Below are positions 17,577-43,595 of a stretch of 64,000 nt of DNA, one piece after another. Positions within the stretch are counted from its first letter, which is position 1. Each line of letters opens with the position of its first letter. A program made the position numbers and the translations under genes. Under the pieces are notes generated by a model. That model was not told the origin of the DNA. It saw nothing but the letters and a program-made list of their open reading frames with translations, and did not search any database. The stretch is from Thermoproteota archaeon (GTDB taxonomy: Archaea; Korarchaeota; JAOZGF01; JAOZFZ01): positions 1 to 64,000 of the forward strand of contig JAOZFT010000032.1 in the NCBI GenBank assembly GCA_027492035.1. Direction: 5' to 3'.

Positions 17577-17794
17577 ATTTTTCACCTTTACCCCTTTCCT
17601 GAAAGTTAAACTTTGAGGAAAAATTTTAAAAGGGTATTTATTTCTTATGTGCAAGTTTTTAGTAAGAGCCAAAAAAGGGTTTATGCATACTTATTTCCCT
17701 TCCTTAAGGCTTAAAAAAAGTAAATTAGTAATGTTTTAAAGAAAAAGTAGTTTCTTCTCTTTCAAGAGAAAATGATGAGGGGGAGGTGCATAGT

Positions 17795-18559: not shown

Positions 18560-18570
18560 GGTCGCCTAGG

Positions 18571-19869
18571 ATGAGTAAAGGGATTTTTATCTCTGTAGAT
18601 AAAGTATCCAAGGCTCAAATGCTTCAACTGGACATATGTTCACGCTGCGCACTCTGTGCAGAGTATTGTCCAACATATAACGAAACAAGGGACAAAGTTT
18701 TAATACCTGGTGAAAGATCTAAACAGATAATGAGTCTTGTGAAAAAACAAAAAGGACTCCTTACTTTTTTCACAGGCCCTAAATCTGTCAGTAAAGAAGA
18801 ATTAAGTGACCTAAATAAAGCAGGGTACCTTTGTACACTCTGCGGCCAATGCACCTACACCTGCCCTACCGGCATCCAAACAACTAATCTTTGGTTAACT
18901 TTAAGAAATATTTTGTTTGAAGCAGGAGTTTCTCCTCAACCCATGAAAGACTTTTCAAAAATTCTCTCTGAGAATTATAATTTTCTGGGTCACTCCAATA
19001 CTGAAAGAGCTGACTGGGTGGATTTCAGGTTGAAATTCAATAAAAGGAAGATTAAGAAACTAGATGAAAAAAGAAGAAGCGAACTAAGATATGTTGAGTT
19101 AAGGAAGGAAGATATATTAAAAAGGGAAGCAGATGTTGTTTATTTTATAGGTTGTAACTCTTCCTTTTTTAAAGGGTTATCTGGTGCAGCTGACGCAATG
19201 GTTCACATCTTGAATGCTGCAGGTGAAAAAGCAACCATTTTGGGTGAAGATGAATGGTGTTGCGGCTACCCCTTCCTCTTAGCTGGTAACATAAAAAAAT
19301 TTGAAGAATTTGTGCGCCATAATTTGGGAGAATTTAAGAAAAGAAAGGCTGATACCGTTGTTTTCACATGTGCTGGATGCTACAAAACATTTAAGCATGA
19401 GGTACCTGAAATTCTCGGTATAGAATCTAACTTAAATTTTCTACACTCCTCCCAATTAATTGAAATATATTTTAAAGAAGGGAAGCTTCCATCTTTGCCC
19501 GAAGAGCAGGAAGAGTTAGTGATTACCTACCACGATCCGTGTGACATTGGGAGATATGGTTTAATCTATGAAGAGCCCCGTGAAATCCTTAGAAAAGTAA
19601 ATGTAACCCTTAAAGAAATGCGGGATACAAAAGAAAAAGCCCTTTGCTGCGGTGGAGGAGGATTAATGAAAGCAGTGAACAAAGAATTAACAAATAAAAT
19701 AGCTGTCAAAAGAGCTCAGCAGGTGGTGGAAACAAAGGCAAGTAGAGTTTGTTCAGGTTGTCCCTCCTGCGAATCAACCCTTAAAGAAGGGTTACAGAAC
19801 CTAGGAGCCAAGGTACGTGTTTTAGACATAACAGAAATAATAGCTGAAAAACTTGGTTTGCTCCCTTAA
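18571..19869 (+). CDS. HdrD/DsrK-like iron-sulfur disulfide reductase subunit
   Basis: About 432 residues. Two [4Fe-4S] motifs lie near the N-terminus (CSRCALCAEYCP and CTLCGQCTYTCP). These are followed by two CCG domains: C..EWCCGYP..CAGC, and DPC..ALCCGGGG..CSGCPSC. The second complete CCG motif is the type that binds the non-cubane cluster which cleaves disulfides in HdrB/HdrD. ATG 18571 has GAGGT eight bases upstream; a TTG at 18556 would add five residues. It is paired with the membrane cytochrome b gene directly upstream, giving a two-subunit membrane disulfide/thiol oxidoreductase of the HdrED or DsrMK class. Confidence 0.88.
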   Translation: MSKGIFISVDKVSKAQMLQLDICSRCALCAEYCPTYNETRDKVLIPGERSKQIMSLVKKQKGLLTFFTGPKSVSKEELSDLNKAGYLCTLCGQCTYTCPTGIQTTNLWLTLRNILFEAGVSPQPMKDFSKILSENYNFLGHSNTERADWVDFRLKFNKRKIKKLDEKRRSELRYVELRKEDILKREADVVYFIGCNSSFFKGLSGAADAMVHILNAAGEKATILGEDEWCCGYPFLLAGNIKKFEEFVRHNLGEFKKRKADTVVFTCAGCYKTFKHEVPEILGIESNLNFLHSSQLIEIYFKEGKLPSLPEEQEELVITYHDPCDIGRYGLIYEEPREILRKVNVTLKEMRDTKEKALCCGGGGLMKAVNKELTNKIAVKRAQQVVETKASRVCSGCPSCESTLKEGLQNLGAKVRVLDITEIIAEKLGLLP

Positions 19870-19878
19870 TTTAATCCT

Positions 19879-19901
19879 CCTTTTTTACTTTTTAAAAAAG
19901 G
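19879..19901. terminator. Bidirectional T-tract terminator between convergent genes
   Basis: The 47 bp between the HdrD-like gene and the H-protein gene contain CCTTTTTTACTTTTT followed by AAAAAAGG. Both strands therefore carry a run of five or six T, matching archaeal oligo-T termination. The two genes end head to head here. Confidence 0.5.
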
Positions 19902-19916
19902 GAAGGGAAGTAATTT

Positions 19917-20345
19917 TTATTTTTTCAGTTTTTCAGTTATTTCTCTTTTAATCCATTGTGTTATCTCGTCTGGTGAGTGGTAAAGATTTTTTAGCTCCTC
20001 CTCTAATTTACTGGGTTTTATTACTGCAATCCATCCCTCTCCATATGGGTCTTTGTTAATTAAGGTGGGATCATCCTCCAATGCCTCATTTGACTCAACA
20101 ACTGTTCCTGAAATAGGTGAAATCAATTTCCCAACCCATTTACCGCTTTCCACAGTACCGATTGGCTGTCCTTGCTCAACTTCATCCCCTTCGAAAGGAG
20201 TATCTATGTAAACTAAATTCCCTGCAGCTTTAGCCCCAAAGTCATTATATCCTATCCTCACCTTATCCCCTTCAACTTTAACCCAACAATGGTCTTTATG
20301 GTAATATAACTCCTCTGGAAACTCATACTCATCTACCTTAACCAT
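19917..20345 (-). CDS. gcvH: Glycine cleavage H-protein-like lipoyl carrier
   Basis: 142 residues. It opens DEYEFPEELYYHKDHCWVKVE, has the GYNDFGAKAAGNLVYIDTP strand pattern, and carries the lipoyl-lysine turn TVESGKWVGKLISPISG, with Lys in the place of the usual ESVKA lysine. ALEDDPTLINKDPYGEGW is another family hallmark. It would carry a lipoyl arm for methylamine transfer in glycine cleavage. No gcvT, gcvP or lipoyl ligase gene is in the window. The nearest neighbour is a disulfide reductase pair, convergent with it, which recalls the lipoate-binding proteins of sHdr-type systems. The link is suggestive only. Confidence 0.9.
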   Translation of the reverse strand: MVKVDEYEFPEELYYHKDHCWVKVEGDKVRIGYNDFGAKAAGNLVYIDTPFEGDEVEQGQPIGTVESGKWVGKLISPISGTVVESNEALEDDPTLINKDPYGEGWIAVIKPSKLEEELKNLYHSPDEITQWIKREITEKLKK

Positions 20346-25468: not shown

Positions 25469-25888
25469 ATGGGGTTGTTTATGATGGCTGAAAAGATAAG
25501 GGTTTTATTGGCTAAACCTGGACTTGACGGGCATGATAGGGGAATAAAAGTTGTAGCTAGGGCTTTAAGGGACAGCGGAATGGAAGTAATTTATCTAGGA
25601 ATAAGGAACACACCTGAACAAATAGTTGAAACAGCCATTCAAGAAGATGTGGATGTAATAGGTTTAAGCATTCTTTCCGGTTCTCACATGTACCATTTCC
25701 CAAGAATTTTACAGCTTCTTAAAGAAAGGAAAGCTGAAGACATAGTGGTGATAGGTGGAGGGATAATACCTCAGGAAGACAAGGAAAAACTAGAAAAAAT
25801 GGGAGTTAAAGCAATTTTTGGACCTGGAACCTCAACTCAAGAAATAATAAAGAAAATTAAGGAACTAATAGGGAATAAGAAAAACTAA
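25469..25888 (+). CDS. Methylmalonyl-CoA/acyl-CoA mutase small subunit (B12-binding)
   Basis: 139 residues. It contains the base-off B12 motif DGHDRG (residues about 20-25), with [12 protein letters not shown] and VIGGGIIP completing the cobalamin Rossmann domain. It is a stand-alone B12 subunit, and the large subunits are separate genes as usual in archaea. It is the only B12-binding subunit in the window, yet two large subunits are present. A TTTTAAAAG element about 27 bases upstream of ATG 25469 would fit a leaderless start; ATG 25481 or 25484 are alternatives. Confidence 0.93.
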
Positions 25889-25909
25889 AGGGATACTTAA
25901 GGTGTCATA

Positions 25910-26851
25910 ATGGGTTTGGTTGAAGACATGCTTAAAGGAGATAAGAGAGCCCTCTCTAGAGTCATTACTTTAGTGGAAAACAACTCTCAAAATTGTGAAG
26001 AGATACTCTCCAAACTTTACCCTCACACAGGTAACTCCCAAATCATAGGGGTTACCGGTCCACCTGGAAGTGGTAAATCTACTTTAATTAATCACTTAGT
26101 AAGAGAATTTGTGAGGAAGGGATATAAAGTAGGAGTTCTTGCAATTGATCCTTCAAGTGAATTCACGGGAGGGGCCTTGCTTGGTGACAGAATAAGGATG
26201 CTGGAAGTTTCTTTAGACAGTAACGTGTTTATTAGGAGTATGGGTACTAGAGGTACTCTTGGAGGTATTTCAAGAAAAACAAAGGAGGTTGTGAGGGTTT
26301 TAGAAGCATTTGGGAAAGATAAAATAATAATTGAAACCATAGGTGCTGGCCAAAGCGACATTGAAATAACTAGAACAGCCCACACGGTTATAGTTGTCTT
26401 AACCCCTGAAACTGGGGATGATGTCCAAGTTTTAAAGGCAGGAATAATGGAGATTGGAGACATATACGTGGTAAACAAGGCCGACATAGGGAATGCTGAG
26501 TTTATGGTTGAAGAAATAAAGGCTTTAATTGCCAGTAAATCCAGTAACGTAAGTAAAGAATGGACTGCCCCAGTTATTAAAGCTTCAGCTAAAAAGAAGG
26601 AAGGAATAAGAGAATTAGTTGAGCAGGTAGAGAAACATTGGAATTACCTTAAAGTTTCAGGTGAAATTAATAAACTAGAGGAAAGAAGAGTTAAAAATGA
26701 AGTAGTAGATACTTTAAACAGGAAAATCTCAAATTACCTACTTTCTAAACTGGAATCTGAATTCGGTAAAGAAATTTTTGATGAGATTTTAAAACGGAAA
26801 GAATCCCCTTACTCTGTAGTTAATCGTTTAATAAAGAAATTTCTTTGTTAA
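25910..26851 (+). CDS. meaB: MeaB/ArgK-type GTPase, acyl-CoA mutase chaperone
   Basis: 313 residues. P-loop GVTGPPGSGKSTLINHL, LAIDPSSEFTGGALLGDRIRM, the Mg/Asp motif, IIETIGAGQSDIEI, TPETGDDVQVLKAGIMEI and VNKAD for guanine recognition are all hallmarks of MeaB. It gates loading and repair of adenosylcobalamin on MCM or ICM. It lies 21 bp after the B12 subunit gene and directly before the first mutase gene. In bacterial IcmF the same domain is fused to isobutyryl-CoA mutase; here it is free. Confidence 0.94.
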   Translation: MGLVEDMLKGDKRALSRVITLVENNSQNCEEILSKLYPHTGNSQIIGVTGPPGSGKSTLINHLVREFVRKGYKVGVLAIDPSSEFTGGALLGDRIRMLEVSLDSNVFIRSMGTRGTLGGISRKTKEVVRVLEAFGKDKIIIETIGAGQSDIEITRTAHTVIVVLTPETGDDVQVLKAGIMEIGDIYVVNKADIGNAEFMVEEIKALIASKSSNVSKEWTAPVIKASAKKKEGIRELVEQVEKHWNYLKVSGEINKLEERRVKNEVVDTLNRKISNYLLSKLESEFGKEIFDEILKRKESPYSVVNRLIKKFLC

Positions 26852-26893
26852 ATTTTAGACAATTAATAAGTTAAATTTGCCTTTTTTCTCAAA

Positions 26894-28591
26894 ATGTGTA
26901 GGGGAATAAACTTGTTTAATTCCAAAAAAATTGATGAAATGAAAAAGAGCATAGACAAGTGGGAAAAAACTACTTTAGAAGAATCCTTGAAGCTTAAAAG
27001 TGAGAGGAAAAAGGAATTCTTCACTTCTTCAAACATAGTGGTTAAAAGGGTTTATACTCCCCTAGATATTGCAAACAAAGACTATCTAAAGGAAATAGGT
27101 TTACCTGGAGAATACCCTTTCACAAGAGGGATTCATGCCACCATGTACAGGGCCAGAATATGGACAATGAGGCAGTTTGCAGGTTTTGGAACAGCCGAAC
27201 AAACGAATAAAAGATTTAAATACCTACTTCAACATGGAGAGACAGGTTTAAGTGTAGCTTTTGATTTTCCAACTTTGTGCGGGTACGATTCAGATGATTT
27301 AATGTCTAAGGGGGAAGTTGGAGCTTGTGGAGTAGCAGTTGACACTTTGAAAGACATGGAAATACTGTTTGAAGGGATTCCCTTAAATAAAGTAACTACA
27401 AGTATGACTATTAACGGCCCTGCAGCAACTATTTGGTCCATGTACATAGTTACTGCTGAAAAACAAGGTGCAAAAAAGGAAGAACTCGGCGGCACAATCC
27501 AAAATGATATCTTAAAGGAGTATATGGCACAAAAGTCATTTATCTTTCCTCCTGAGCCCTCGCTTAAACTGGTGGTTGACACAATAGAGTATGCTTCAAA
27601 ATACCTACCTAAATGGAACCCTATAAGTATTAGCGGCTACCATATAAGGGAAGCTGGAGCTAACGCTGTTCAAGAATTAGCTTTCACTTTAGCTGATGGA
27701 TTAACATATGTTGAAGCCACTTTGGAGAGAGGTTTAAAAGTTGATGACTTCGCTCCACGCTTATCTTTCTTTTTCGCTTGCCACAATAACTTCTTTGAAG
27801 AAATAGCTAAGTTCAGGGCTGCAAGAAGGATATGGGCTAGAGAAATGAAGGAAAGATTTCAAGCCAAGAAGAAAAGAAGTTTATGGTTAAGGTTTCATAC
27901 CCAAACCTCAGGTTGCACATTAACAGCCCAACAACCTTACAACAACATAGTAAGGGTTGCTATTCAAGCTTTGGCTGCTGTGCTTGGGGGTACTCAAAGT
28001 TTACACACTAACAGCATGGATGAAGCATTAAGTTTACCTACTGAATTCGCTGTAAGAATAGCTTTGAGAACGCAGCAAATAATAGCCCATGAATCAGGCG
28101 TAACTGATACAATAGATCCGTTAGGGGGGTCATATTATGTTGAATGGTTAACTGATAAAATGGAGGAGGAATGTTACAAATACTTTGACAAAATAGATAA
28201 GCTAGGAGGGGTTGTGGAGGGAATAAAAAGAGGGTTTTTCCAAAAAGAAATTGCTAATTCAGCTCATAAGTATCAAGAAGGTATAGATAAAGGGGAGATA
28301 ATAGTGGTTGGTGTTAACGGCTACGCAACTGAAGAATTAATGCCTGTTCCCATTTTCAGAATTGAGCCAGAAGTTGAAAAGAAACAAATTGAAAGGTTAA
28401 AAAGGGTTAAAATGGAAAGAAATAGTAAGAAGGTTGAGGAAGCTATTGATCAACTTAAAAAAGCCGCTGAAAAAGAAGAAAACCTTATGCCTTACATAAT
28501 AAATGCAGTGAAAGAGTATGCAACCTTGGGAGAAATCACTAAAGCTTTAAAAGAAATTTATGGAGAATATCATGAACTACTAATTTACTGA
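26894..28591 (+). CDS. Acyl-CoA mutase large subunit, isobutyryl-CoA mutase type
   Basis: 565 residues with the TIM-barrel substrate domain only. It carries the family landmarks ([60 protein letters not shown]). Known specificity positions, in Propionibacterium MutB numbering, are Tyr89 and Arg207 for methylmalonyl-CoA. Here they read Phe (RQF) and Gln (MAQK), the pair known for isobutyryl-CoA mutase. The Tyr75 position (GPYATMY in MCM) is His (GIHATMY). The catalytic His of SGYH is kept. It should interconvert n-butyryl-CoA and isobutyryl-CoA or a related unbranched/branched pair (inference). A TTG at 26912 behind AGGGGA is an alternative start. Confidence 0.88.
   Translation: MCRGINLFNSKKIDEMKKSIDKWEKTTLEESLKLKSERKKEFFTSSNIVVKRVYTPLDIANKDYLKEIGLPGEYPFTRGIHATMYRARIWTMRQFAGFGTAEQTNKRFKYLLQHGETGLSVAFDFPTLCGYDSDDLMSKGEVGACGVAVDTLKDMEILFEGIPLNKVTTSMTINGPAATIWSMYIVTAEKQGAKKEELGGTIQNDILKEYMAQKSFIFPPEPSLKLVVDTIEYASKYLPKWNPISISGYHIREAGANAVQELAFTLADGLTYVEATLERGLKVDDFAPRLSFFFACHNNFFEEIAKFRAARRIWAREMKERFQAKKKRSLWLRFHTQTSGCTLTAQQPYNNIVRVAIQALAAVLGGTQSLHTNSMDEALSLPTEFAVRIALRTQQIIAHESGVTDTIDPLGGSYYVEWLTDKMEEECYKYFDKIDKLGGVVEGIKRGFFQKEIANSAHKYQEGIDKGEIIVVGVNGYATEELMPVPIFRIEPEVEKKQIERLKRVKMERNSKKVEEAIDQLKKAAEKEENLMPYIINAVKEYATLGEITKALKEIYGEYHELLIY
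27964..28026 (+). repeat. 63-nt perfect repeat shared with the second mutase gene, copy 1
   Basis: This stretch is identical, base for base including third codon positions, to 32418-32480 in the paralogous mutase gene. It encodes the [21 protein letters not shown] region. A second tract (27767-27829 against 32221-32283) differs at one base only. The flanking sequence is much more diverged. Confidence 0.9.
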
Positions 28592-28998
28592 ATTAGGAAT
28601 TCTGCACTCTAATAAACTAATTTTTTAGGCCATGTTCCGCATACTGCATAACTTCACTGTTTTTTGGTTCAGTTTTTCTTTATAATTCCCTCTGCAGCAG
28701 ATAAATTTATAGTGAAGCGTCATAGAACTTGTATTTAGGTTTCAGGTTTTCTTTAAGCCCTTTTTTCTGGCGTTATTAACATCTTCATATTTAGCCAATT
28801 CATAACTTAGAACCTTCAGTCTTGACCAGCTTCTTCAAAATAAATACTACATTTTTGGGAAACTTCCACAACTTTAAATCTACTTCTCTTGCTTTATTTG
28901 ACCCGGTGTAGGAAAATTGTTTTAAGGAGAGTTTTAACTGGTAGGAACTTATCTTGGAATATAAAAACGTTCATTTATAATATCTTTAAGTTTTTTAA
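28592..28998. other. Intergenic region without a recognisable gene
   Basis: 407 bp between the first mutase gene and the cobalamin adenosyltransferase gene. No ORF, tRNA or known cobalamin-riboswitch core was recognised. Near the right end TTTATAA (28974-28980) lies about 22 bases before ATG 28999 and may be the TATA box of a leaderless transcript. Confidence 0.4.
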
Positions 28999-29580
28999 AT
29001 GAACAAAATGGAATTGATCAACATAAAGATTTTTTGCGGGTGTAGTGGAGTGAAGAAACTTAAGAAGGGCCTTGTCCAAGTTTATACAGGTAACGGTAAA
29101 GGTAAAACAACCGCTGCTTTAGGTTTGGCTTTAAGGGCTTTAGGTCACGGTTACAGGGTTTGTATGGTTCAATTTATGAAAGGTGGGATAAGGTACGGTG
29201 AAATAGAGATTGCTAAAAAACTTGACAATTTTGAGGTTAAGAGTTTTGGGAGGCCTGAATTTGTAGATAAAAACAATCCAGAAGAAATAGATATAAAATT
29301 AGCCCATGAAGCTTTAAACTACGCCTCTGAAATAATTAAATCTAGGAAATGTGACATAGTGATCCTAGATGAAATTAATGTCGCCCTCGAGTGGAAACTC
29401 ATAAAGCTAGGTGATGTCCTAGATATATTAAAAAGTAAACCTGAAGATGTAGAAATTATTTTGACAGGTAGATACGCCCCTAAAGAAATAATTAACTTAG
29501 CTGATTTAGTTACTGAAATGAAAGAAATTAAACATCCTTACCAAAAGGGTGTAAAGGCTAGGGAAGGGATAGAGTTTTAG
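28999..29580 (+). CDS. cobA: Cob(I)alamin adenosyltransferase, CobA/BtuR type
   Basis: 193 residues. It has LVQVYTGNGKGKTTAALGLALRALGHG (P-loop form of the CobA family), VCMVQFMKGG, IVILDEINVAL and TGRYAPKEIINLADLVTEM, all diagnostic. It makes adenosylcobalamin, the cofactor of the flanking mutases, and so serves this island directly. The first 19 residues (with Cys-Gly-Cys) precede the usual N-terminus. A GTG at 29050 would give a family-length protein, while the TATA spacing favours ATG 28999 as a leaderless start. Confidence 0.93.
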   Translation: MNKMELINIKIFCGCSGVKKLKKGLVQVYTGNGKGKTTAALGLALRALGHGYRVCMVQFMKGGIRYGEIEIAKKLDNFEVKSFGRPEFVDKNNPEEIDIKLAHEALNYASEIIKSRKCDIVILDEINVALEWKLIKLGDVLDILKSKPEDVEIILTGRYAPKEIINLADLVTEMKEIKHPYQKGVKAREGIEF

Positions 29581-29625
29581 AGGGAGAAAGAAGCTTTCTT
29601 TAACCTCTTCAATCCATTTTCTTTG

Positions 29626-29976
29626 TCAAGTTGCTGGTTTGAATTTGAAACCATAAACTTCTTTACTGTCTATTTTTCTCAGAAAACCCCATACTGGCTT
29701 CATCTTCATTCCTATTTCGACATTTTCTGAAGTTAATTGCCCAGTTGCTCTAACCCCGTTTTCAAATTCAACAATGCCTAAAATTAAGGGTTTCTCTTCA
29801 ACTCCTTTAGGTGTAGCGTAAAGTTTGGTATAAGTTATTAGTTTGCATTTGTCACCTAGTTCGACTTTTTCGAATTCTCGAGAGTCACAGTTCATACACA
29901 CAGCATGTTTAGGGTAATATATCCTTCCGCAACGCTTACACCTGTATCCAATCATCCTCTTTTCTGTTTCATTCAT
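29626..29976 (-). CDS. DUF35 zinc-ribbon/OB-fold protein (thiolase partner)
   Basis: 116 residues. A four-Cys zinc ribbon (CKRC and CMNC, spaced 13 residues) is followed by an OB fold (TYTKLYATPKG; LILGIVEFENGVRATGQL). This is the DUF35 architecture that forms tight complexes with SCP2-type thiolases, for example in the archaeal thiolase/HMG-CoA synthase complex and in steroid-degrading Ltp2-ChsH2 aldolase. It starts 3 bp after the thiolase-like gene, so the two are co-translated. It convergently faces cobA. Confidence 0.9.
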   Translation of the reverse strand: MNETEKRMIGYRCKRCGRIYYPKHAVCMNCDSREFEKVELGDKCKLITYTKLYATPKGVEEKPLILGIVEFENGVRATGQLTSENVEIGMKMKPVWGFLRKIDSKEVYGFKFKPAT

Positions 29977-29979
29977 TTC

Positions 29980-31164
29980 TTAATCCCCTCTTTTTAAAAC
30001 GAAAGCTACAACGTTACTTCCGAAACTGAAAAAGTTACAGGAGAAACCTATTTCAGCGTTTTCAACCTGCCTTTCCCCAGCTTCGTTTCTAAGCTGCCAG
30101 ACTAACTCCACTATTTGTGCAGCCCCTGTAGCTCCTACAGGATGGCCTCGTGCTTTCAATCCACCCGAGGGGTTAATTGGTATTTTTCCACCTATTTCTG
30201 TTAACCCTTCTTCTAAGGCCTTATGTCCTTCTCCCTTTTTAAAGAAACCAGCTTCTTCGCTTTCAGCTATTTCAAGTATGGTGAATGCGTCATGCAGCTC
30301 AGCTACATCTACATCTTTAGGTTCAACCTTAGCTATTTCAAATGCTTTCTTAGCTGCTATTCTTAAAGATTTAATTTCTGTCGGATCCTCTCTTTCGTGG
30401 ACAGCTTGAACCTCTGTAGCCTGGCCAAAACCTATTATTTCAACAGGTGTGTCAATGTATTTCTTTGCTTCCTCTAATGGGCATAGAATAACTGAGGCTG
30501 CGCCGTCACTTACGGGGCAGCAATCATAAAGTCTTAGGGGGTCAGCTATAACTGGGTTTTTTATTCCGGATTTTTCAGGGTATAGTATGTCGTCAACAGT
30601 TACTGCTTTATGTATGTGTGCATAAGGGTTTTTTAAAGCATTTTTATGGTTTTTTGCTGCAACCATTGCTAAATGTTTCCTTTCTACACCGTATTTATGC
30701 ATGTAAAGCCTGGTAAACATTCCAGCTAAAGAAGGTAATGTTACTCCTTGTGCATATTCAGCTTCAGGATGAGTCATGGTAGCTATGAAATCAGTGATTT
30801 CATTTCCAGTTGTAACCCTCATTTTTTCACCTGCAGCCACTAATACTTTGTCAAAATAACCTGAAGCCACTGCCAAAAAACCATTTTTTATGGCTGAAGA
30901 ACCTGAAGCAGTTCCGTTCTGTACGGTGTCAACAGCTGCTGGTAAAAGGTTTAAGTTGGCTGTTAAAGCTGTAGCTAAACCTGTTTGGTGATTAAGCAAT
31001 AAACTACCCATGTTTCCCACATAAACAGCATCTATTTGTTTATTGTCTAAGTTTGAGTCATCTAAAGCTTTTAAAGAAGCTTCAGTTAAAAGATCCATCA
31101 AGGTTGCATTTTCGTGTTTACCGAATTTAGTCATGCCGCACCCAATTATTGCCACTTTCCTCAT
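29980..31164 (-). CDS. SCP2-type thiolase-like enzyme with Thr at the nucleophile position
   Basis: About 394 residues from ATG 31164 (GAGGT eight bases upstream). The in-frame start at 31215 would add 17 residues. It has the thiolase frame: KVAIIGCGMTKFG, AELHDAFTILE (conserved His), NPSGGLKARGHPVGATGAAQ (conserved His). The nucleophile site, normally ACASG, reads NGTASG, and the DNA confirms Thr. The last active-site segment (usually HNxGG) reads SCNFFSFGSN. Without Cys it is unlikely to be a normal thiolase. Cys-independent relatives with DUF35 partners act as retro-aldol lyases. The product is therefore left open. It neighbours the B12 mutases. Confidence 0.85.
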   Translation of the reverse strand: MRKVAIIGCGMTKFGKHENATLMDLLTEASLKALDDSNLDNKQIDAVYVGNMGSLLLNHQTGLATALTANLNLLPAAVDTVQNGTASGSSAIKNGFLAVASGYFDKVLVAAGEKMRVTTGNEITDFIATMTHPEAEYAQGVTLPSLAGMFTRLYMHKYGVERKHLAMVAAKNHKNALKNPYAHIHKAVTVDDILYPEKSGIKNPVIADPLRLYDCCPVSDGAASVILCPLEEAKKYIDTPVEIIGFGQATEVQAVHEREDPTEIKSLRIAAKKAFEIAKVEPKDVDVAELHDAFTILEIAESEEAGFFKKGEGHKALEEGLTEIGGKIPINPSGGLKARGHPVGATGAAQIVELVWQLRNEAGERQVENAEIGFSCNFFSFGSNVVAFVLKRGD

Positions 31165-31368
31165 TTTCTTTCTTACCTCCCAGGGAAATGGATAAGAATG
31201 GTCACTTACCTTCACTTTTTAAATTTTCCCTTTAATTCCTCCCTGTTTTGTTGGAATAGAAAACTTTTTTAAGTGAAGGGAAGAGAATTTCTTTGTTCAC
31301 TTATTTAACGCTCTGTTGTCACATTTTTTTCAATGAAGGTTTTTGGAGGCTTATAAAGGGTATAAATA

Positions 31369-33054
31369 ATGAATAGGAGCAATTTAGAAAAAATAAGTAA
31401 GGGCAAAAAGGAATGGGAGGAAAAACAATTGAAGAACCTTTTGAAGAAAGCACCTGAAAGAAAGAGTGTTTTCAAAAATTCCTCAGGAATAGAAGTGGGA
31501 AGGGTCTACACCCCCCTTGAGATCCAAGGTTTTGATTACTTAACCAAGTTAGGCTTCCCCGGCAGTTACCCTTACACTAGAGGCCCCTATGCAACAATGT
31601 ATAGAGGCAGGTTATGGACCATGAGGCAATACGCCGGCTTCGGAACAGCTGAAGAAACAAATAAACACTTCAAATACTTGCTGAGTCAGGGTCAGACAGG
31701 TTTAAGTGTAGCTTTCGACTTGCCTACACAGATAGGCTACGACTCTGATCACCCCTTAGCTAGAGGGGAAGTAGGGAGGGTGGGTGTAGCTGTTGATTCA
31801 TTAAAAGACATGGAAATACTATTTCAGGGGATTCCTCTGGACAAAGTAAGCACCTCAATGACAATTAATGCACCCGCCAATGTGTTATTGGCGATGTACT
31901 TAACCCTAGGGGAAATGCAAGGTATAAATAGATCTCTTTTAAGAGGAACTGTTCAGAACGACATATTGAAGGAATACATTGCTAGGGGAACCTACATCTT
32001 TCCTCCAACACCCTCACTGAAAATAGCTGTAGATGTTTTTGAATTTTGTTCGAAAGAAATGCCTAAATGGAACTTCATAAGCGTAAGTGGCTACCATATG
32101 AGAGAAGCTGGGGCTAATGCTGTTCAAGAATTAGCTTTCACTTTAGCTGATGGGTTAGCTTACATAAATGCTGCTTTAGAAAGAGGTTTAAAAATTGATG
32201 ACTTTGCTCCCAGGATCTCCTTCTTTTTCGCTTGCCACAATAACTTCTTCGAAGAAATAGCTAAGTTCAGGGCTGCAAGAAGGTTGTGGGCTGAAATTTT
32301 AAAGGAAAAGTATTCTCCAAAGAAAGAAAGATCCTTACTTATGAGGTTCCACACTCAAACCTCAGGTTGTACATTAACTGCTCAGCAGCCTATGAACAAT
32401 ATAATACGTGTAGCTTATCAAGCTTTGGCTGCTGTGCTTGGGGGTACTCAAAGTTTACACACTAACAGCATGGATGAAGCCCTATGTTTACCCAGTAAAC
32501 AATCAGTTAAGATTGCTTTAAGAACTCAACAAATCCTAGCTTATGAAACAGGCGTCTCTGACACTATAGACCCCTTAGGTGGATCCTATTACCTTGAATG
32601 GTTAACTGATGAATTAGAAGAAAAAGCTAGGAAGTATATTGATGAAATAGAGGAAATGGGGGGAATGGCGAAAGCTATTGAGAAAGGATTTATCCAGAAG
32701 GAAATACTTGAAACAGCTTATCACTACCAGAAAGAAATAGAGAAAGGAGAAACTGTAGTTGTGGGAGTGAATAAATTCAAGGAAGAAAGGGAAGAAATAA
32801 AAATTGAAATTTTCAACGTTTCAAAACTTGAAGAAACAGCTAAAATGCAAATTAAAAAACTTCAAATAGTTAAAAGAGAAAGGAATAAGTCTAAGGTTGA
32901 AGAGGCATTGTGTAAACTAGGTAAAGCGGCTGAAAAGAATGAAAACCTTGTACCTCCAATAATTGAGGCAGTTAAAGCTTATGCCACTTTAGGAGAAATA
33001 TGTGGTGTGTTAAGAAACATTTATGGGGAGTATAGAGCCCCAAATATTCTTTAA
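31369..33054 (+). CDS. Methylmalonyl-CoA mutase large subunit
   Basis: 561 residues, collinear with the first mutase. The specificity positions here are those of true methylmalonyl-CoA mutase: Tyr in RQYAGFG (MutB Tyr89) and Arg in YIARGTY (MutB Arg207), with GPYATMY retaining Tyr75. The [10 protein letters not shown] His is present. It interconverts methylmalonyl-CoA and succinyl-CoA with the separate B12 subunit encoded at 25.5 kb. The epimerase gene follows after 16 bp, so they form an operon. A propionyl-CoA carboxylase or methylmalonyl-CoA decarboxylase gene is not in the window. Confidence 0.93.
32418..32480 (+). repeat. 63-nt perfect repeat shared with the first mutase gene, copy 2
   Basis: Partner of 27964-28026. 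Both copies are in frame and in the same orientation, about 4.4 kb apart. Confidence 0.9.
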
Positions 33055-33070
33055 AAAAGGGTGAAAGATA

Positions 33071-33469
33071 ATGTTTAAGAAGATAGACCATATTGGAATA
33101 GCTGTCAAAGACCTTGAAGAAACCATGAAAAAATTTAAGGATGTTTACGGTTTAGAACTGCATAAAGTAAGGGAAGTGAAGGATCAAAAAGTGAAAATTG
33201 CAGTTTTTAAAATAGGTGAAACCAAAATAGAACTTCTTGAACCAACCGAAGAAGAAAGTGCAGTTGGAAGATTTATTCGAAAAAGAGGGGAAGGTTTCCA
33301 TCACATAGCTTTTCAAGTTGAAGATTTAGGATCTACATTGGAAAAAATTGAGGGGGCAGGCATAAAAACAGTGACTGATAAGCCGACTTTAGGCTACGAA
33401 AACCACAAAATCATTTTCTTGCATCCAAAAACAACTAACGGCGTATTAATAGAACTTGTGGAAAAGTAA
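33071..33469 (+). CDS. mce: Methylmalonyl-CoA epimerase
   Basis: 132 residues. It has a two-repeat glyoxalase-fold (VOC) protein pattern: KIDHIGIAVKDLEETMKKF, EGFHHIAFQVED and a final VLIELVEK, with the metal-binding His and Glu residues in place. It converts (S)- to (R)-methylmalonyl-CoA so that the mutase can use it. It is translationally close to the mutase gene upstream and is followed by a 140-bp gap before the DUF1116 gene. Confidence 0.94.
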   Translation: MFKKIDHIGIAVKDLEETMKKFKDVYGLELHKVREVKDQKVKIAVFKIGETKIELLEPTEEESAVGRFIRKRGEGFHHIAFQVEDLGSTLEKIEGAGIKTVTDKPTLGYENHKIIFLHPKTTNGVLIELVEK

Positions 33470-33609: not shown

Positions 33610-34884
33610 TTGGCTTCTTCAAGCATTAAGGAAGAGATAGAAAAGGCAAATCAGGAATCTGTTACAAGAATGATGGAGTCAGATCCACTGTGGGTCGATA
33701 TAGGATTTGCTAAGAAAGTAATTCCGGGAATGAAGGATTATAAACTGATACATGCAGGTCCCCCAATTGAATGGGAAAGAATGAGCGGACCCATGAGAGG
33801 GGCAATAATAGGTGCTATACTCTACGAAAAGTGGGCTGAAACACCTAAAGAAGCTGAGGAATTAGCTAAGTCAGGTAAAGTTAGTTTCGAACCTAACCAT
33901 CACTATAACGCAGTAGGTCCCATGAGCGGGGTTATTTCCCCAACTATGCCAGCAATTGTTCTGAAAGATAAAAAGTATGGGAACCAAACCTATTCTCTCC
34001 TTAATGAAGGAATAGGGAAAGTGCTCCGTTACGGCGGCTACGACAAGGAAGTAATAGATAGGTTAAACTGGATAAGAGACGTCTTAGGCCCAGTTTTAGA
34101 AGCTACAATAAAGGAAGTAAAGAAGGAGAAGGAAGGTGTAGCTTTAAAACCAATTATGTCGCAGGCTCTCCACATGGGTGACGAATGCCATAACAGACAT
34201 GTAGCTGCTACTTCTCTCTTCCTGAGGGAAATAATTCCTTACATGATGCAGACAAGGTTAGACAAGAAAGACCTAATTGATGCATACAACTTCATGAACA
34301 AAAATAACTTCACTTTCCTAGGGTTCGCTATGGCTGCAGCTAAGGCAATGACTTTAGCAGCTCACAATATTAAGTACAGTACAATAGTGACTGTCATGAG
34401 TAGGAACGGTACAGACATAGGTATTTGGGTTAGTGGTTTAGGTAATGAATGGTTCACTGCACCAGCTCCTGTACCTAAGGGTGTTTGGTTCCCAGGGTTC
34501 AGTGAGAAAGATGCTAACCCTGATCTAGGAGACAGCGCCATAATGGAAACAGCTGGTATAGGAGGATTTGCTATGGCGGCAGCACCCGCGATTGTAGCCT
34601 GGGTTGGAGGATCTGTTTCCTTCGCTGTTGAAAACACTAAAAAGATGCAAGAAATCTGTTACACCAAACATAAATACTTCACCATACCCTATCTTGAATT
34701 TGAAGGAACCCCTACAGGCGTAGATATAAGAAAGGTTGTGAAGACAGGGATAACTCCAACTATAAACACAGGCATTGCTCACAAGGAAGCAGGAATAGGT
34801 CAAGTGGGGGCAGGAATTGTGAAATTCCCAATGAAGATGTTTAAAGATGCGTTAAAAGCCTTTGCAGAAAAATATGGGTTATAA
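33610..34884 (+). CDS. allG: DUF1116 protein, AllG/YlbE-like oxamate carbamoyltransferase subunit
   Basis: 424 residues. The start is TTG 33610 behind GGTGA. It opens with ANQESVTRMMESDPLWVDI and VIPGMKDYKLIHAGPPIEW, then has LHMGDECHNRHVAAT, VTVMSRNGTDIGIWVSG and FTAPAPVPKG, the conserved stretches of the DUF1116 family. In E. coli the homologue works with FdrA (AllF) and YlbF (AllH) as oxamate carbamoyltransferase: oxalurate plus phosphate gives oxamate plus carbamoyl phosphate. All partner genes are within 9 kb here. The gene is followed after 54 bp by the DUF2877 partner. Confidence 0.9.
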   Translation: MASSSIKEEIEKANQESVTRMMESDPLWVDIGFAKKVIPGMKDYKLIHAGPPIEWERMSGPMRGAIIGAILYEKWAETPKEAEELAKSGKVSFEPNHHYNAVGPMSGVISPTMPAIVLKDKKYGNQTYSLLNEGIGKVLRYGGYDKEVIDRLNWIRDVLGPVLEATIKEVKKEKEGVALKPIMSQALHMGDECHNRHVAATSLFLREIIPYMMQTRLDKKDLIDAYNFMNKNNFTFLGFAMAAAKAMTLAAHNIKYSTIVTVMSRNGTDIGIWVSGLGNEWFTAPAPVPKGVWFPGFSEKDANPDLGDSAIMETAGIGGFAMAAAPAIVAWVGGSVSFAVENTKKMQEICYTKHKYFTIPYLEFEGTPTGVDIRKVVKTGITPTINTGIAHKEAGIGQVGAGIVKFPMKMFKDALKAFAEKYGL

Positions 34885-34938
34885 AACCCATCCCTTATTC
34901 TTTTTTGCCTACAAAAATATGCGAAAGACCGATTTTTG

Positions 34939-35898
34939 ATGCATTTAGAAAGTATTGGCGAAATAGCTTTAAATGAAATAACCAAGTCAGAAGGGGAAAG
35001 TAAATTAGGGACAGTGTTGAACGTTTTCAAATCCACAGCCTACATAAAAACAATAAGTAATGAATTAATTATATTAACCACCCTCCCCTTAAAATCCCCT
35101 ATAACCATGAACTTAAACTATAGAGGTAACCTTAAATCTGTTTTAAAACCTTTAGCAAAAATTAAAGTAAGGGACGGTAAACTTCAAACAAATGGTTTCA
35201 CAGCATCTTTAGTTGAAGCCAAAAAATATGTTGTTCAAAAACAATGCCTTAACGCTGATGTATTGTTTTCTATTCTGGAAAAAGATTTCCGAAACATCCT
35301 TTCTCTCTTAAACCTTGAACTTTATAATGCATCAATTACTTGGTTAAAAACTTATCAAGTAGTTACCGAAAAGTTTATGGAGTGTCTTAACGAAACTAAA
35401 AAATTGAAAAATAATTTACAGAACTCAATTTTAAATTTTTTAACTAAAATTATAGGGTTAGGGCCTGGTTTCACCCCTTCAGGGGATGACTTTGCGGCAG
35501 GTTTTCTTTTCATATTCAACACCTTTTCTCCCTTACTCAAACTTAAAAAAATAAAAATAAGCAATAGTATCCTCTTCTCCCACACAAATTGGGTTAGTGG
35601 AAAAATAGTAGATTATATACAGCGAGGTATTGCTGATGAAGTGCTTTACAAGGTTCTTTGCTGCTTAAAGAACCTTCAAAGGAATTCTTTAACAGATTCC
35701 TTCCTAGACCTGATTTCAAGGGGTCATACCACCGGAGTAGATCTTGCGATGGGGTTTCTTGCAGCTATTTCCTTTCTACAAGATACTGCCTATAACTCAA
35801 GTTTAACTTCTAAACTGATCCTTTTCTTGCTTGAAAATACAAAGCAAGTTTTGTTTGTTGGGGGAGATGGGAACCTAAGGAAATTACCTAAGAACTAA
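34939..35898 (+). CDS. allH: DUF2877 protein, AllH/YlbF-like oxamate carbamoyltransferase subunit
   Basis: 319 residues. The two family signatures are clear: GLGPGFTPSGDDFAAGFLF (about residues 174-192) and the C-terminal SRGHTTGVDLAMGFLA. DUF2877 proteins co-occur with FdrA and DUF1116 and form part of the oxamate carbamoyltransferase. ATG 34939 has no good SD. An AAAAATA element about 23 bases upstream could direct a leaderless transcript, although readthrough from allG is as likely. The N-terminal third is more diverged than the rest. Confidence 0.87.
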   Translation: MHLESIGEIALNEITKSEGESKLGTVLNVFKSTAYIKTISNELIILTTLPLKSPITMNLNYRGNLKSVLKPLAKIKVRDGKLQTNGFTASLVEAKKYVVQKQCLNADVLFSILEKDFRNILSLLNLELYNASITWLKTYQVVTEKFMECLNETKKLKNNLQNSILNFLTKIIGLGPGFTPSGDDFAAGFLFIFNTFSPLLKLKKIKISNSILFSHTNWVSGKIVDYIQRGIADEVLYKVLCCLKNLQRNSLTDSFLDLISRGHTTGVDLAMGFLAAISFLQDTAYNSSLTSKLILFLLENTKQVLFVGGDGNLRKLPKN

Positions 35899-36074
35899 AA
35901 CATTTATCTTTTTTCAGGGAGGAAAAGTAAACATTTAAAAATGAAGCCTTTCCTGTGAAAGGGTATTACCCATACTCCCCTACAATTCCTTTAATGAATG
36001 TCTCAGGGGGAAAACATGTTAAAGAACTGTTTTTCTTATTCTGAAAAGGGTGAAGTAATGCAGGTGAAATTTAT

Positions 36075-38459
36075 TTGAGGCAGAAATATATAGGTAAAGC
36101 TTTACCTCAGCTTGATTCATTTCATAAAGTTACCGGTATAGCCAAATACACACACGACATCTCCCTTCCCGGTATGCTCCACGTTAAACTCGTAACTAGT
36201 ACGGAGCCACATGCAGAAATAATCAACATTGATGCAAGTGAAGCTTTAAAAATTCCTGGAGTGGTGGCAGTTCTTACAGGGAAAGATTTTCCTTACAGGC
36301 TTGGGATTTATGTAGGAGATAGAGATGTTTTGGCAATTGACAAAGTTAACTGGGTAGGTCATCCTGTAGCCGCTGTAGTTGCCGAAACAATGGAGGCAGC
36401 TGAGAAAGCCATTGACTTGGTTGAAGTAGATTATAAGCCTTTGAAACCTGTCTTCGACCCCTTTGAAGCTTTAAAGGAAGAAGCGCCGATTATCCACCCA
36501 AAACTTGGTGAATATAGACGTGCACCTGCTTTTACGCCGGTTCCAGGAACAAATATAGCTAATAAATTCACTTTAAGGAAGGGAGATGTGGAGAAAGGGT
36601 TTAAAGAAGCAGATGTGGTGGTTGAAAACAGATTTTACATGCCCTTCGTAAGTCACTGTTACATGGAGACACAATCCGTGGTTGCACATTACCACAAAGA
36701 CGGGACAATTGAAATATGGACGAGTGCACAGTCTCCATTCGCTGTAAGGAACCTAATGGGTTTGTCACTAGGTATCCCTATCGGTAAAATAATTATTTAT
36801 CAGCCCTTTGTGGGAGGAGGTTTCGGAGGTAAAGCAGGGTTACATTGGGAACCATTGGCAGCCTTAATTTCTAAAAAGGTAGGTTACAAACCTGTTAAGC
36901 TTAAACTTTCAAGGAAGGAACAGTTTACTTCAGCACCTGTAAGGGAAGGGTTCCATGCAGAAGTTAAAGTAGGGGCTAAAAGAAACGGTAAATTAACAGC
37001 TTTAAAAGCAAAATTCATTCTTGACAGTGGAGCATTCGCAGATTACACAGTAAATGTTTCTAGAGCTGCAGGTTACTCTGTGGGGGAAGTATATGACATT
37101 CCTAATGTGTACTGTGACTCCTTAGCTGTTTACACAAACAAAGTACCTACTACAGCTATGAGAGGTTTTGGTCACCCGGAAAGTGCGTGGGCTGTTGAAA
37201 GATCCATTGAAATGTTAGCTAACGAATTAAAAATGGATCCCCTAAAACTAAGGTTAATGAATGTTGTTAAAGCAGGCATATCAACAACCGTAACAGGTGA
37301 AAGACTTAGGGAAGATGCAGGTAATCCAGTCCAGTGTTTGGAGGCTGTAGCTAAAGCAATTAACTGGGGTAAAACCGAAGAAAAACCCAAGGAACCTTGG
37401 AAATTTATAGGTAAAGGGTTAGCTGTTTTCTCCAAGGGTCCAGCTCAACCTCCTAATGCTGCTTCTGCAGCTATTATAAAAATAAATGAGGATGTAACTG
37501 TCGATTTAATGGTTGGGACTGGAAACTTCGGACAAGGCACCCTAACAAGTCTGGCGCAAATTGTCGCTGATGAATTGGGGGTACCTGTAGAAAAAGTAAG
37601 AATAAGAACTATGCGTAGTACAGACACTGTAGCCTATACTTGGCAAACAGTAGGTAGTAGAGGCCTTTTCACTGATGGAAACGCTGTGCTTGAAGCACTA
37701 AAGGATGCTAAAAAACAAATAAAGGAAGTAGCTTCACAGGTCCTTAGAGTTAAGCCTGCAGATTTGGAAATAAAAGACGGAAAAGTTATGGTAAAGGGCA
37801 GACCCTGGGAAAATGTCCCTTTGAGTGACATAGTCATGGGATATACTTACCCCAATGGCAACTCTATAGGAGGCCCAATAATAGGTAGAGGTAAATACAT
37901 CTCCCCAATAAATACTTATTTAGATCCTGAAACAGGTCAAGGAATACCCACTATCTTCTACACCTTTGGTGCTGCTGCATGCAAAGTTGAAGTTGACGTC
38001 CTTACAGGTAAAGTGAAAGTGCTGGAAGCTGCCCAGGCTTTCGATCTAGGAAAAGCCATAAACCCATTACTTGTCCGTCAACAAGTTGAAGGGGGCTTTA
38101 TAATGGGTCTAAGTGTAGCGTTATTTGAAGAGATACAATTTGATGAAAGAGGGTGGGTTCTTAACCCTAACTTCTCAACTTACTGGGTTGCCAGGGCTGC
38201 AGATATTCCTTCAAAAATAGACACTATACCAGTGGAGAATCCTCAGAAAGATGCACCTTACGGCGCAAGAGGGATAGGGGAAGTAGTAATGTTAGGTGTC
38301 CCCCCTACAATAGCCAACGCTGTACAGAATGCAATAGGGGTAAACATCAATAATTTGCCTTTAACGCCTGAAAACGTTTGGAAAGCTATAAAGAAGCAGA
38401 GGCCTGAATTGGTAGAAGAAATAAAGAAGAAATTGGTTTCATGGAAATGGAAAGTTTAG
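36075..38459 (+). CDS. Xanthine dehydrogenase-type molybdopterin large subunit
   Basis: 794 residues, the normal size of a separate Mo-pterin subunit. The start is TTG 36075, seven bases after AGGTGA. It has QPFVGGGFGGKAGLHWEP and TTAMRGFGHPESAW for pterin binding, and a C-terminal GARGIGEVVMLGVPP with the catalytic Glu. The AYRCSFR loop of aerobic CO dehydrogenase is absent (RGFGHPES in its place), so it is not CoxL. It hydroxylates a heterocycle or aldehyde; purine is favoured by the neighbouring ureide genes. It is first of three genes in the standard large-FAD-[2Fe-2S] order. Confidence 0.88.
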   Translation: MRQKYIGKALPQLDSFHKVTGIAKYTHDISLPGMLHVKLVTSTEPHAEIINIDASEALKIPGVVAVLTGKDFPYRLGIYVGDRDVLAIDKVNWVGHPVAAVVAETMEAAEKAIDLVEVDYKPLKPVFDPFEALKEEAPIIHPKLGEYRRAPAFTPVPGTNIANKFTLRKGDVEKGFKEADVVVENRFYMPFVSHCYMETQSVVAHYHKDGTIEIWTSAQSPFAVRNLMGLSLGIPIGKIIIYQPFVGGGFGGKAGLHWEPLAALISKKVGYKPVKLKLSRKEQFTSAPVREGFHAEVKVGAKRNGKLTALKAKFILDSGAFADYTVNVSRAAGYSVGEVYDIPNVYCDSLAVYTNKVPTTAMRGFGHPESAWAVERSIEMLANELKMDPLKLRLMNVVKAGISTTVTGERLREDAGNPVQCLEAVAKAINWGKTEEKPKEPWKFIGKGLAVFSKGPAQPPNAASAAIIKINEDVTVDLMVGTGNFGQGTLTSLAQIVADELGVPVEKVRIRTMRSTDTVAYTWQTVGSRGLFTDGNAVLEALKDAKKQIKEVASQVLRVKPADLEIKDGKVMVKGRPWENVPLSDIVMGYTYPNGNSIGGPIIGRGKYISPINTYLDPETGQGIPTIFYTFGAAACKVEVDVLTGKVKVLEAAQAFDLGKAINPLLVRQQVEGGFIMGLSVALFEEIQFDERGWVLNPNFSTYWVARAADIPSKIDTIPVENPQKDAPYGARGIGEVVMLGVPPTIANAVQNAIGVNINNLPLTPENVWKAIKKQRPELVEEIKKKLVSWKWKV

Positions 38460-38471
38460 AGGTGAAGAAAA

Positions 38472-39353
38472 ATGTCTTTTGGTGCACCCTATATTTCAAT
38501 ACCTGAATTCCAGTATCTTAAACCTAAAACTTTGAAAGAAGCGCTTGAAACACTTTCAAAATATGAAGATGAAGCTAAAGTGTTAGCTGGGGGTGTAGGC
38601 CTTTTAAATCTCATGAAAGAAAGACTAGTGGAGCCTGAATATGTAGTTGATATTAAAGGGATTCCTGAACTTAGGAAGGTAACATATGAAGAGGGGAAAG
38701 GGTTGACTATAGGGGCAACAGTGACTTTAAGTGAACTGGAAAACAATGAAATAGTGGAGAGGAAGTACACAGCCTTACATGAAGCAATAAAGGTTTTAAG
38801 TGACCCAGTTTTAAGAAATAGGTCAACATTGGTTGGAAATGTCTGTGAAGCCTTTGCTTGGATGGATAGTCTATCTCCTCTACTTGTTTTCGACGCTGAA
38901 TTAAAAGCTTTAAGCGTAAACGGTGAAAGAATGATAAAAGCCAAAGATTTTATTATCGGCCTAGCTGAAACAGCCTTGGAACCAAATGAACTGGTTGCAT
39001 CCATTTTTCTGCCAGAACCACCTAAAAACTCGGCAAGTAAATTTATTAAATTCAGGTCCAGAAGCGAATTCAGTGTGATCAACGTGGCTTCTCTCTTGGC
39101 AAACAGGGACAATCCTCCAGAAAGAATCTTGAGATTAGCTTATGGAGGAGCTACGCCTTCTCCCGTTAGGGTATTTGCAGTAGAAAAAGTTTTTAAGCAA
39201 CAGAAACCCTTAAATGAATTACTTAAGGAAGCTTTAGATGTTGTTTTCAAAGAAGTTTCCCCAATGGAAGACATGCATGCTTCTAAGGAATACAGGGAAC
39301 ATTTAATGGAAACTTTAACCATTAAAATTATTAGGGAACTCTGGGGTGAATGA
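38472..39353 (+). CDS. Xanthine dehydrogenase-type FAD subunit
   Basis: 293 residues. The FAD diphosphate motif reads VLAGGVGLLNLMK (family AGGTDLL), the second motif STLVGNVCEAFAWMDSLSPLL (family TxGGNxxxAxPxxD), and a C-terminal AYGGATPSPVR completes the CODH-flavoprotein-C type domain. It passes electrons from the [2Fe-2S] clusters to the final acceptor. Departures from consensus in the second motif (Val for Gly, Phe-Ala-Trp for the usual Ala-x-Pro) suggest a particular acceptor or subfamily. It is 12 bp after the large subunit gene, with AGGTGA in the gap. Confidence 0.9.
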   Translation: MSFGAPYISIPEFQYLKPKTLKEALETLSKYEDEAKVLAGGVGLLNLMKERLVEPEYVVDIKGIPELRKVTYEEGKGLTIGATVTLSELENNEIVERKYTALHEAIKVLSDPVLRNRSTLVGNVCEAFAWMDSLSPLLVFDAELKALSVNGERMIKAKDFIIGLAETALEPNELVASIFLPEPPKNSASKFIKFRSRSEFSVINVASLLANRDNPPERILRLAYGGATPSPVRVFAVEKVFKQQKPLNELLKEALDVVFKEVSPMEDMHASKEYREHLMETLTIKIIRELWGE

Positions 39354-39355
39354 AA

Positions 39356-39826
39356 ATGCCAAGAAAAATCACCTTCACCGTGAATGGTGTGAAAAAACAG
39401 GTGGAGGTTAAGGATAATGAGTTGTTGGCTGATGTTTTAAGAGATAAGCTTCAACTTACAGGTGTAAAGCAGGCATGTTGGAGAGGGGAATGTGGACTTT
39501 GCACAGTACTCCTTAACGGTAAACCTGTTAAATCATGCCTTATCTTAGCTGTTGAAGCAAACGGGGCTGAAATAGTTACCAGTGAAGGATTAATGGAGGG
39601 TGACAAACTATCCCATCTACAAAAGTCATTTGTTGAAAACGGAGCTCTTCAATGTGGTTTCTGCACACCAGCTTTCACATTGGTAACTCATTATTTACTG
39701 ACTCAAAAACCTGACGCGTCAGAAGAAGAAATAAGGGAATATATTAGTGGCTTAATTTGTAGGTGTGGAACCTATAATGAAATAGTGAAAGCTGTGAAAC
39801 AGGCTTCTCAATACTACAAAAAATAA
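39356..39826 (+). CDS. Xanthine dehydrogenase-type [2Fe-2S] subunit
   Basis: About 156 residues. The plant-type [2Fe-2S] ligands lie in CWRGECGLCTVLLNGKPVKSC and the second cluster ligands in CGFCTPAF plus CRCGTY, the canonical small subunit of molybdenum hydroxylases. ATG 39356 is six bases after GGTGA; ATG 39350 overlaps the FAD subunit stop and is an alternative. It ends 32 bp before the end of the convergent FdrA-domain gene. That gap is T-rich on the plus strand and probably terminates this operon. Confidence 0.94.
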   Translation: MPRKITFTVNGVKKQVEVKDNELLADVLRDKLQLTGVKQACWRGECGLCTVLLNGKPVKSCLILAVEANGAEIVTSEGLMEGDKLSHLQKSFVENGALQCGFCTPAFTLVTHYLLTQKPDASEEEIREYISGLICRCGTYNEIVKAVKQASQYYKK

Positions 39827-39858
39827 GGAAATGAATTTCTTTTCCTCTTTTTCTTTCT

Positions 39859-40032
39859 TTAAAGGATTTTTGAAAGGATGTCCTTGTATTCTTTTTCTAG
39901 TTTAGGGGGCGGCTGCCAAGTGACGTGTACAGCCTTTATTTCTTGGTCAAGCAAGGCATTATAAAATATTTCTATGCCTATGTTTATTACTTTTAATTCA
40001 GATTTAAATAACTCCATCACTTTCTCACTCAT
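39859..40032 (-). CDS. Small FdrA-domain protein (57 aa)
   Basis: 57 residues from ATG 40032, nine bases behind GAGGTGA and 12 bases after the fdrA stop. The GTG at 40044 overlaps that SD. The core LKVINIGIEIFYNALLDQ followed by KAVHVTWQPP resembles the VINxGLxxFxxxLxxQGxxVVxVDWRPPA segment found in FdrA-associated proteins. That segment is sometimes annotated as an FdrA domain protein. The Asp of VDW is Thr here. It probably is a small extra subunit or the detached C-terminal piece of FdrA. Function is unknown. Confidence 0.7.
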   Translation of the reverse strand: MSEKVMELFKSELKVINIGIEIFYNALLDQEIKAVHVTWQPPPKLEKEYKDILSKIL

Positions 40033-40046
40033 TCCTTTTTTCACCT

Positions 40047-41660: not shown

Positions 41661-41715
41661 ATTTATCACCTAAATTTTTAATTCTATTTCTCCTTCTTTG
41701 TTTCCAAGAGTTTAC

Positions 41716-42675: not shown

Positions 42676-42696
42676 GTTATCAACCTTTGCAAAAGC

Positions 42697-42704
42697 GTTT
42701 TATC
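42697..42704 (-). promoter_or_regulatory. TATA-like element of arcC-fdrA operon
   Basis: Minus strand AAATAAGGATAAAAC, centred about 25 bases before the arcC ATG, so transcription would start at or near the start codon. The same AAATAARGATAAAAC sequence stands before the CoA-transferase operon (44628-44635). Confidence 0.45.
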
Positions 42705-42807
42705 CTTATTTAGAAAGGATGTGAAATAAAGAATAAGGGAAAGCAGTAGTGCTTTTAAAAAATTTTTGCTTAATTTACCATTTTTCCAGCGTAGAATGTA
42801 AAATTCT

Positions 42808-43590: not shown

Positions 43591-43595
43591 AACTC

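Follow-up and report, generated by a model that had tools for sequence, protein, structure and literature searches.

The question raised by the locus

The window, by which we mean the whole 64-kb stretch of archaeal DNA analysed here, carries the genes of two acyl-CoA mutase large subunits together with that of one B12-binding small subunit, and it raises the question of which substrates the two enzymes act on and whether the small subunit serves them both. The gene of the small subunit (139 amino acids, TIGR00640, single copy found genome-wide; positions 25469-25888, plus strand) is followed on the same strand by those of a MeaB-type G-protein chaperone (25910-26851; TIGR00750 above cut-off), of a large subunit of 565 amino acids (26894-28591) and of a CobA-type cobalamin adenosyltransferase (28999-29580; TIGR00708 above cut-off). 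This large subunit, hereafter F/Q, is a predicted isobutyryl-CoA mutase on the grounds of Phe95 and Gln213, the alignment with solved chains and the tree described below. Two minus-strand genes encode a DUF35/OB-fold acyl-CoA-binding partner of thiolase (29626-29976; a distant BbsA match) and a thiolase-domain protein (29980-31215; NF004720 above cut-off), which we infer to be a candidate for the final step of butyryl-CoA oxidation. The plus strand then carries the second large subunit of 561 amino acids (31369-33054), hereafter Y/R, which by Tyr88 and Arg206, the same alignment and the tree is a predicted methylmalonyl-CoA mutase (MCM), and, 16 bases 3' of it, methylmalonyl-CoA epimerase (33071-33469; TIGR03081 above cut-off). 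Both large subunits are full-length with intact frames and are 64% identical to one another. Of the two large-subunit genes only F/Q adjoins the gene of the small subunit, from which Y/R is 5.5 kb distant, and within the 64-kb window one MeaB and one adenosyltransferase gene were counted, as in the original prediction. No cobalamin riboswitch was found near the operon by Rfam match.

Some further genes of the window may be mentioned here. Positions 33610-44609 encode AllG and AllH (oxamate carbamoyltransferase subunits), xanthine-dehydrogenase-like subunits, an FdrA-like CoA-ligase-domain protein and a carbamate-kinase-like protein, with nucleoside hydrolase and ABC transporter genes close by, and look like a region for anaerobic purine or allantoin breakdown; an AllG-like gene (L214) is located 3' of the Y/R mutase in genome G002, too. 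A PF01144 two-subunit CoA-transferase pair is found at 42808-44609. Finally, a membrane protein, a CCG-domain iron-sulfur protein and an isolated glycine cleavage H-like protein beside a Nuo/Fpo-type cluster (17786-20345) could take up the electrons released by acyl-CoA oxidation.

Specificity residues and phylogeny of the large subunits

Both large subunits were aligned with solved chains of MCM and 2-hydroxyisobutyryl-CoA mutase, relatives which are about 50% identical to them and fix their fold, with Tyr89 and Arg207 of the Propionibacterium shermanii MCM as reference positions. In these columns the open reading frame at 26894-28591 has Phe95 and Gln213 and the one at 31369-33054 has Tyr88 and Arg206, so that the assignment of a Phe/Gln pair to the first and of a Tyr/Arg pair to the second enzyme, previously read from the sequence, is borne out. 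That specificity is set by two sites is credited to Jost et al. 2015 in a passage of PMC7238569. Among 104 typed relatives (33 F/Q and 71 Y/R) every Phe is paired with Gln and every Tyr with Arg, and in a tree of 104 large subunits the two types lie on opposite sides of one branch (SH-aLRT 99). The strict pairing and the split by a single branch argue that the pattern is not due to chance. Only five columns divide the 33 F/Q from the 71 Y/R sequences at a consensus of at least 80%/75%, namely 95 (F/Y), 128 (L/Q; His in MCM), 213 (Q/R), 214 (K/G) and 262 (L/V).

The original prediction had called for alignment with biochemically typed enzymes, and this was run for MCM, IcmF and 2-hydroxyisobutyryl-CoA mutase. 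At columns 95, 122, 128, 213, 214 and 262 the F/Q enzyme of the window reads F, A, L, Q, K, L. The IcmF equivalogs have F, A, L, Q, N, L there, and the residues of 2-hydroxyisobutyryl-CoA mutase are I, D, L, Q, K, A; the F/Q enzyme hence fits IcmF at the key columns. The closest PDB match of both large subunits is 2-hydroxyisobutyryl-CoA mutase (4R3U), but the Ile and Asp at its hydroxyl-substrate positions are present neither in the F/Q enzyme (Phe, Ala) nor in the Y/R enzyme (Tyr, Ala), and despite the top PDB match their lack rules out that the F/Q enzyme is a 2-hydroxyisobutyryl-CoA mutase. That both enzymes are MCMs is likewise ruled out, by the Phe/Gln pair and the separate clade of the first. 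In the tree the F/Q enzyme clusters with the F/Q subunits of G001 (a genome of the same family), Aciduliprofundum and Conexivisphaerales MAGs, apart from its own paralogue, and its closest named relatives are archaeal. When the tree was extended with IcmF, but without the type enzyme, Streptomyces IcmA, a single clade of IcmF and the F/Q sequences was not rejected (p-AU 0.65), the grouping being weak and the branches long. A large subunit with neither residue pair was seen as well: L292 (G147:C1:1337577-1339103) has Phe/Tyr, and its genome, G147, encodes three large subunits, whereas a search at E 1e-18 gave no small subunit.

Metabolic context of the two enzymes

The residues, the clades, the composition of the operon and the gene neighbours in the genome of the same family together support the earlier typing of the two enzymes as a predicted isobutyryl-CoA mutase and a predicted MCM. 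The F/Q operon, consisting of small subunit, MeaB, large subunit and adenosyltransferase, has the same make-up in Syntrophaceae, Aciduliprofundum and others, and these four components also form the isobutyryl-CoA mutase cluster Slip_0757-0760 of the isobutyrate degrader Syntrophothermus lipocalidus (PMC5017805). In G001 a short-chain acyl-CoA dehydrogenase directly follows the F/Q operon, and the contig that carries the Y/R gene and epimerase also encodes biotin ligase, a methylmalonyl/propionyl-CoA carboxyltransferase and biotin carboxylase. The Y/R enzyme of the window has the epimerase next to it and a propionyl-CoA carboxylase-type operon elsewhere in the same genome, a cluster of carboxyltransferase, biotin carboxylase and biotin ligase of which the latter two are named by position and N-terminal sequence only. 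The genome further contains seven acyl-CoA dehydrogenases as well as a cluster of 3-hydroxybutyryl-CoA dehydrogenase, short-chain enoyl-CoA hydratase (crotonase), acyl-CoA dehydrogenase and ETF. With these acyl-CoA oxidation and carboxylase clusters, downstream routes exist for both mutases. Valine is a plausible source of isobutyryl-CoA; there are five OFOR alpha subunits in the genome, and none of the four that were scanned exceeds the valine-specific cut-off. A pyruvate oxidoreductase subunit scores best with an archaeal model, yet under that model's cut-off; together with the archaeal relatives of the F/Q subunit, this makes an archaeal origin of the genome probable. In G001 and G002 a distant predicted mutase of the Y/R type, absent from the genome of the window, is encoded beside an acyl-CoA dehydrogenase (L212:3-2726 and L215:18-3018).

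Might the F/Q enzyme act on another non-carboxylated branched acyl-CoA, such as pivalyl- or isovaleryl-CoA or the thioester of a longer 2-methyl acid? The Phe/Gln pair counts against a second carboxylate but leaves the chain length unfixed, and few assayed enzymes stand behind the residue code. Against this, the key columns fit IcmF and the operon has the same gene content as in an isobutyrate degrader. Kitanishi and colleagues are said to have found in 2015 that a change of the IcmF Phe to a smaller residue shifts the enzyme towards pivalyl-CoA, and the Phe of the F/Q enzyme therefore speaks against this substrate. We regard a substrate other than isobutyryl-CoA as unlikely.

One small subunit in the genome

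The original prediction held that only one B12-binding subunit is present and that this may serve both enzymes, and it named a second small subunit elsewhere as the result that would speak against it. The assembly (1.87 Mb in 42 contigs, 93.3% complete, 1.7% contaminated) was searched for such a protein and none was found: at 93% completeness it encodes only two PF01642 proteins and a single TIGR00640 small subunit above cut-off (171 bits; cut-off 57.45). One small subunit each is likewise present in G001 (94% complete) and in G002, which belongs to the same order. The combination of F/Q, Y/R and one small subunit recurs in 18 of the 79 genomes sampled from the phylum that contains the Thorarchaeota (G044, G045, G047, G075, G084, G090, G093, G095, G099, G102, G104, G107, G110, G113, G116, G128, G134 and G136), for which 90% completeness was asked for and the completeness field is blank. 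G104 carries the three genes on a single contig of 1.55 Mb, and the arrangement is seen in unrelated bacteria also.

The main alternative is that each large subunit has a small subunit of its own and that the one belonging to the MCM is encoded in the 7% missing from the assembly. At 93% completeness a second small subunit could indeed be missing, and genomes in which both enzymes have their own are found in many bacteria, including deltaproteobacteria, and in some archaea; G080 and G088, of the Thorarchaeota-containing phylum, have a small subunit per large subunit. Sharing is therefore not a rule of the family. However, the same-family and same-order genomes also have only one, and a gap rate of 5-10% would be expected to produce one or two such cases among the 79 genomes of the other archaeal phylum rather than 18, which argues that the two-to-one count is not just an assembly gap. 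We consider a missed second small subunit improbable.

The location and descent of the small subunit bear on its use by both large subunits. The gene of the lone small subunit is beside the F/Q gene in G000, G001 and G093, and beside the Y/R gene in the other two-to-one genomes sampled from the Thorarchaeota-containing phylum. A tree built from 88 small subunits requires at least seven switches of the neighbouring partner, three of them forced by supported branches, whereas the large subunits require one change; a division of the small subunits into F/Q and Y/R types, which was considered, is not seen in these 88 sequences. The recurrence of the two-to-one count, the adjacency to either partner and the unsorted small-subunit tree make it likely that the single small subunit is physically shared by both large subunits, and in this indirect way they support the original prediction. 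That the Y/R subunit instead uses one of the five methyltransferase-type corrinoid proteins of 220-242 amino acids, of which two come close to the small-subunit cut-off of 57.45 without reaching it (51.5 and 49.3 bits, the others lower), is hardly credible, as these are about 100 residues longer than the true small subunit, remain below the mutase-model cut-off yet score well against the general B12-binding model, and as relatives with the Y/R gene beside a true small subunit indicate the normal pairing.

Codon identity between the large-subunit genes

The two large-subunit genes share more codons than expected over residues 246-400 of the F/Q protein (positions 27629-28093, plus strand). In this region 86 of 123 same-residue positions have the same codon as compared to 57.9 in codon shuffles, none of 10,000 of which reached the observed count. 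Identical codons run for 20 in a row (shuffle mean 6.7), 63 bases match exactly, and there is no such excess before or after the region. In G001, where the two genes lie on different contigs, the same region has 69 of 124 same codons versus 48.4 in shuffles (0 of 10,000 as high) and a run of 11 (p 0.006). Orthologues of the two genomes mostly do not share codons in the region. At residues 281-320, a bin chosen post hoc among 15, ten sites unite the paralogues of each genome and none the orthologues, as opposed to 44:137 elsewhere (Fisher 1.7e-6). These patterns point to recent sequence exchange between the two genes across residues 250-400 or so, which would have occurred independently in the two genomes. 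The idea that gene conversion generally marks a shared small subunit was rejected: none of 20 other two-to-one genomes shows a signal of this strength, so that the tract belongs to this lineage. G093 has excess codon identity (p 0.002) without a long identical run.

But why would exchange be confined to this part of the genes? The tract lies downstream of the specificity residues 95, 128 and 213. We tentatively suggest, as one possibility among others, that conversion keeps the region from about residue 250 to 400, which is expected to include the B12-facing loops, alike in both proteins and the specificity residues apart, the small subunit being a radical-generating cassette that can dock on any of several barrels, which differ in substrate and can replace one another. 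Conversion may also merely follow the high similarity of this region, without any role of a docking face.

Proposed mechanism and comparison with known systems

Taken together, genes, residues, counts, tree and neighbours are established, as is the gene conversion, and the first five make it quite probable that the operon at 25469-29580 encodes an isobutyryl-CoA mutase and the genes at 31369-33469 an MCM large subunit with its epimerase, with one small subunit for both. The isobutyryl-CoA mutase would have its barrel and its B12-binding small subunit as separate chains, encoded together with the chaperone and the adenosyltransferase, and the small subunit would bring adenosylcobalamin to both barrels. 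The barrel alone would then set the substrate, by Phe/Leu/Gln or by Tyr/Gln(His)/Arg around the acyl group. Isobutyryl-CoA, for instance from valine, would be converted to butyryl-CoA and oxidised to acetyl-CoA, and propionyl-CoA would be carboxylated to methylmalonyl-CoA and rearranged to succinyl-CoA, if flux runs in the directions presumed here.

To our knowledge, acyl-CoA mutases are usually described each with a B12 domain of its own. The enzymes discussed here are of known kinds; their two-to-one arrangement is under-described, and it is this arrangement that deserves notice, along with its recurrence and the tract of conversion. If the proposed sharing is true, the choice of substrate, the loading of the cofactor and quality control by MeaB are decoupled, the two pathways are in competition for a single carrier of loaded cofactor, and the barrels could be swapped for engineering. 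It would also place a route from valine or isobutyrate to butyrate in archaea; a review of 2010 knew isobutyryl-CoA mutase from bacteria only (PMC2847961).

The system most like the F/Q operon is the Syntrophothermus lipocalidus cluster (Slip_0757-0760; PMC5017805), which likewise comprises large subunit, small subunit, adenosyltransferase and a MeaB-like protein. That cluster is reported to be self-contained, however, whereas the small subunit of the window is the only one of its genome, which encodes a Y/R mutase as well. IcmF (NF045497; PDB 4XC6) has the same Phe, Ala, Leu and Gln at the substrate columns as the F/Q enzyme but combines B12 domain, G-protein and barrel in one chain, where the window has separate chains. 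2-Hydroxyisobutyryl-CoA mutase (PDB 4R3U) has a separate large subunit too and has Leu, Gln and Lys in common with the F/Q enzyme, yet it carries Ile and Asp at the hydroxyl-substrate positions instead of Phe and Ala. Finally, the Y/R enzyme has the Tyr/Arg pair of MCM (P. shermanii 1REQ; human 2XIQ) and differs from it in its separate B12 subunit and in the replacement of His122 and Asn208 by Gln and Gly.
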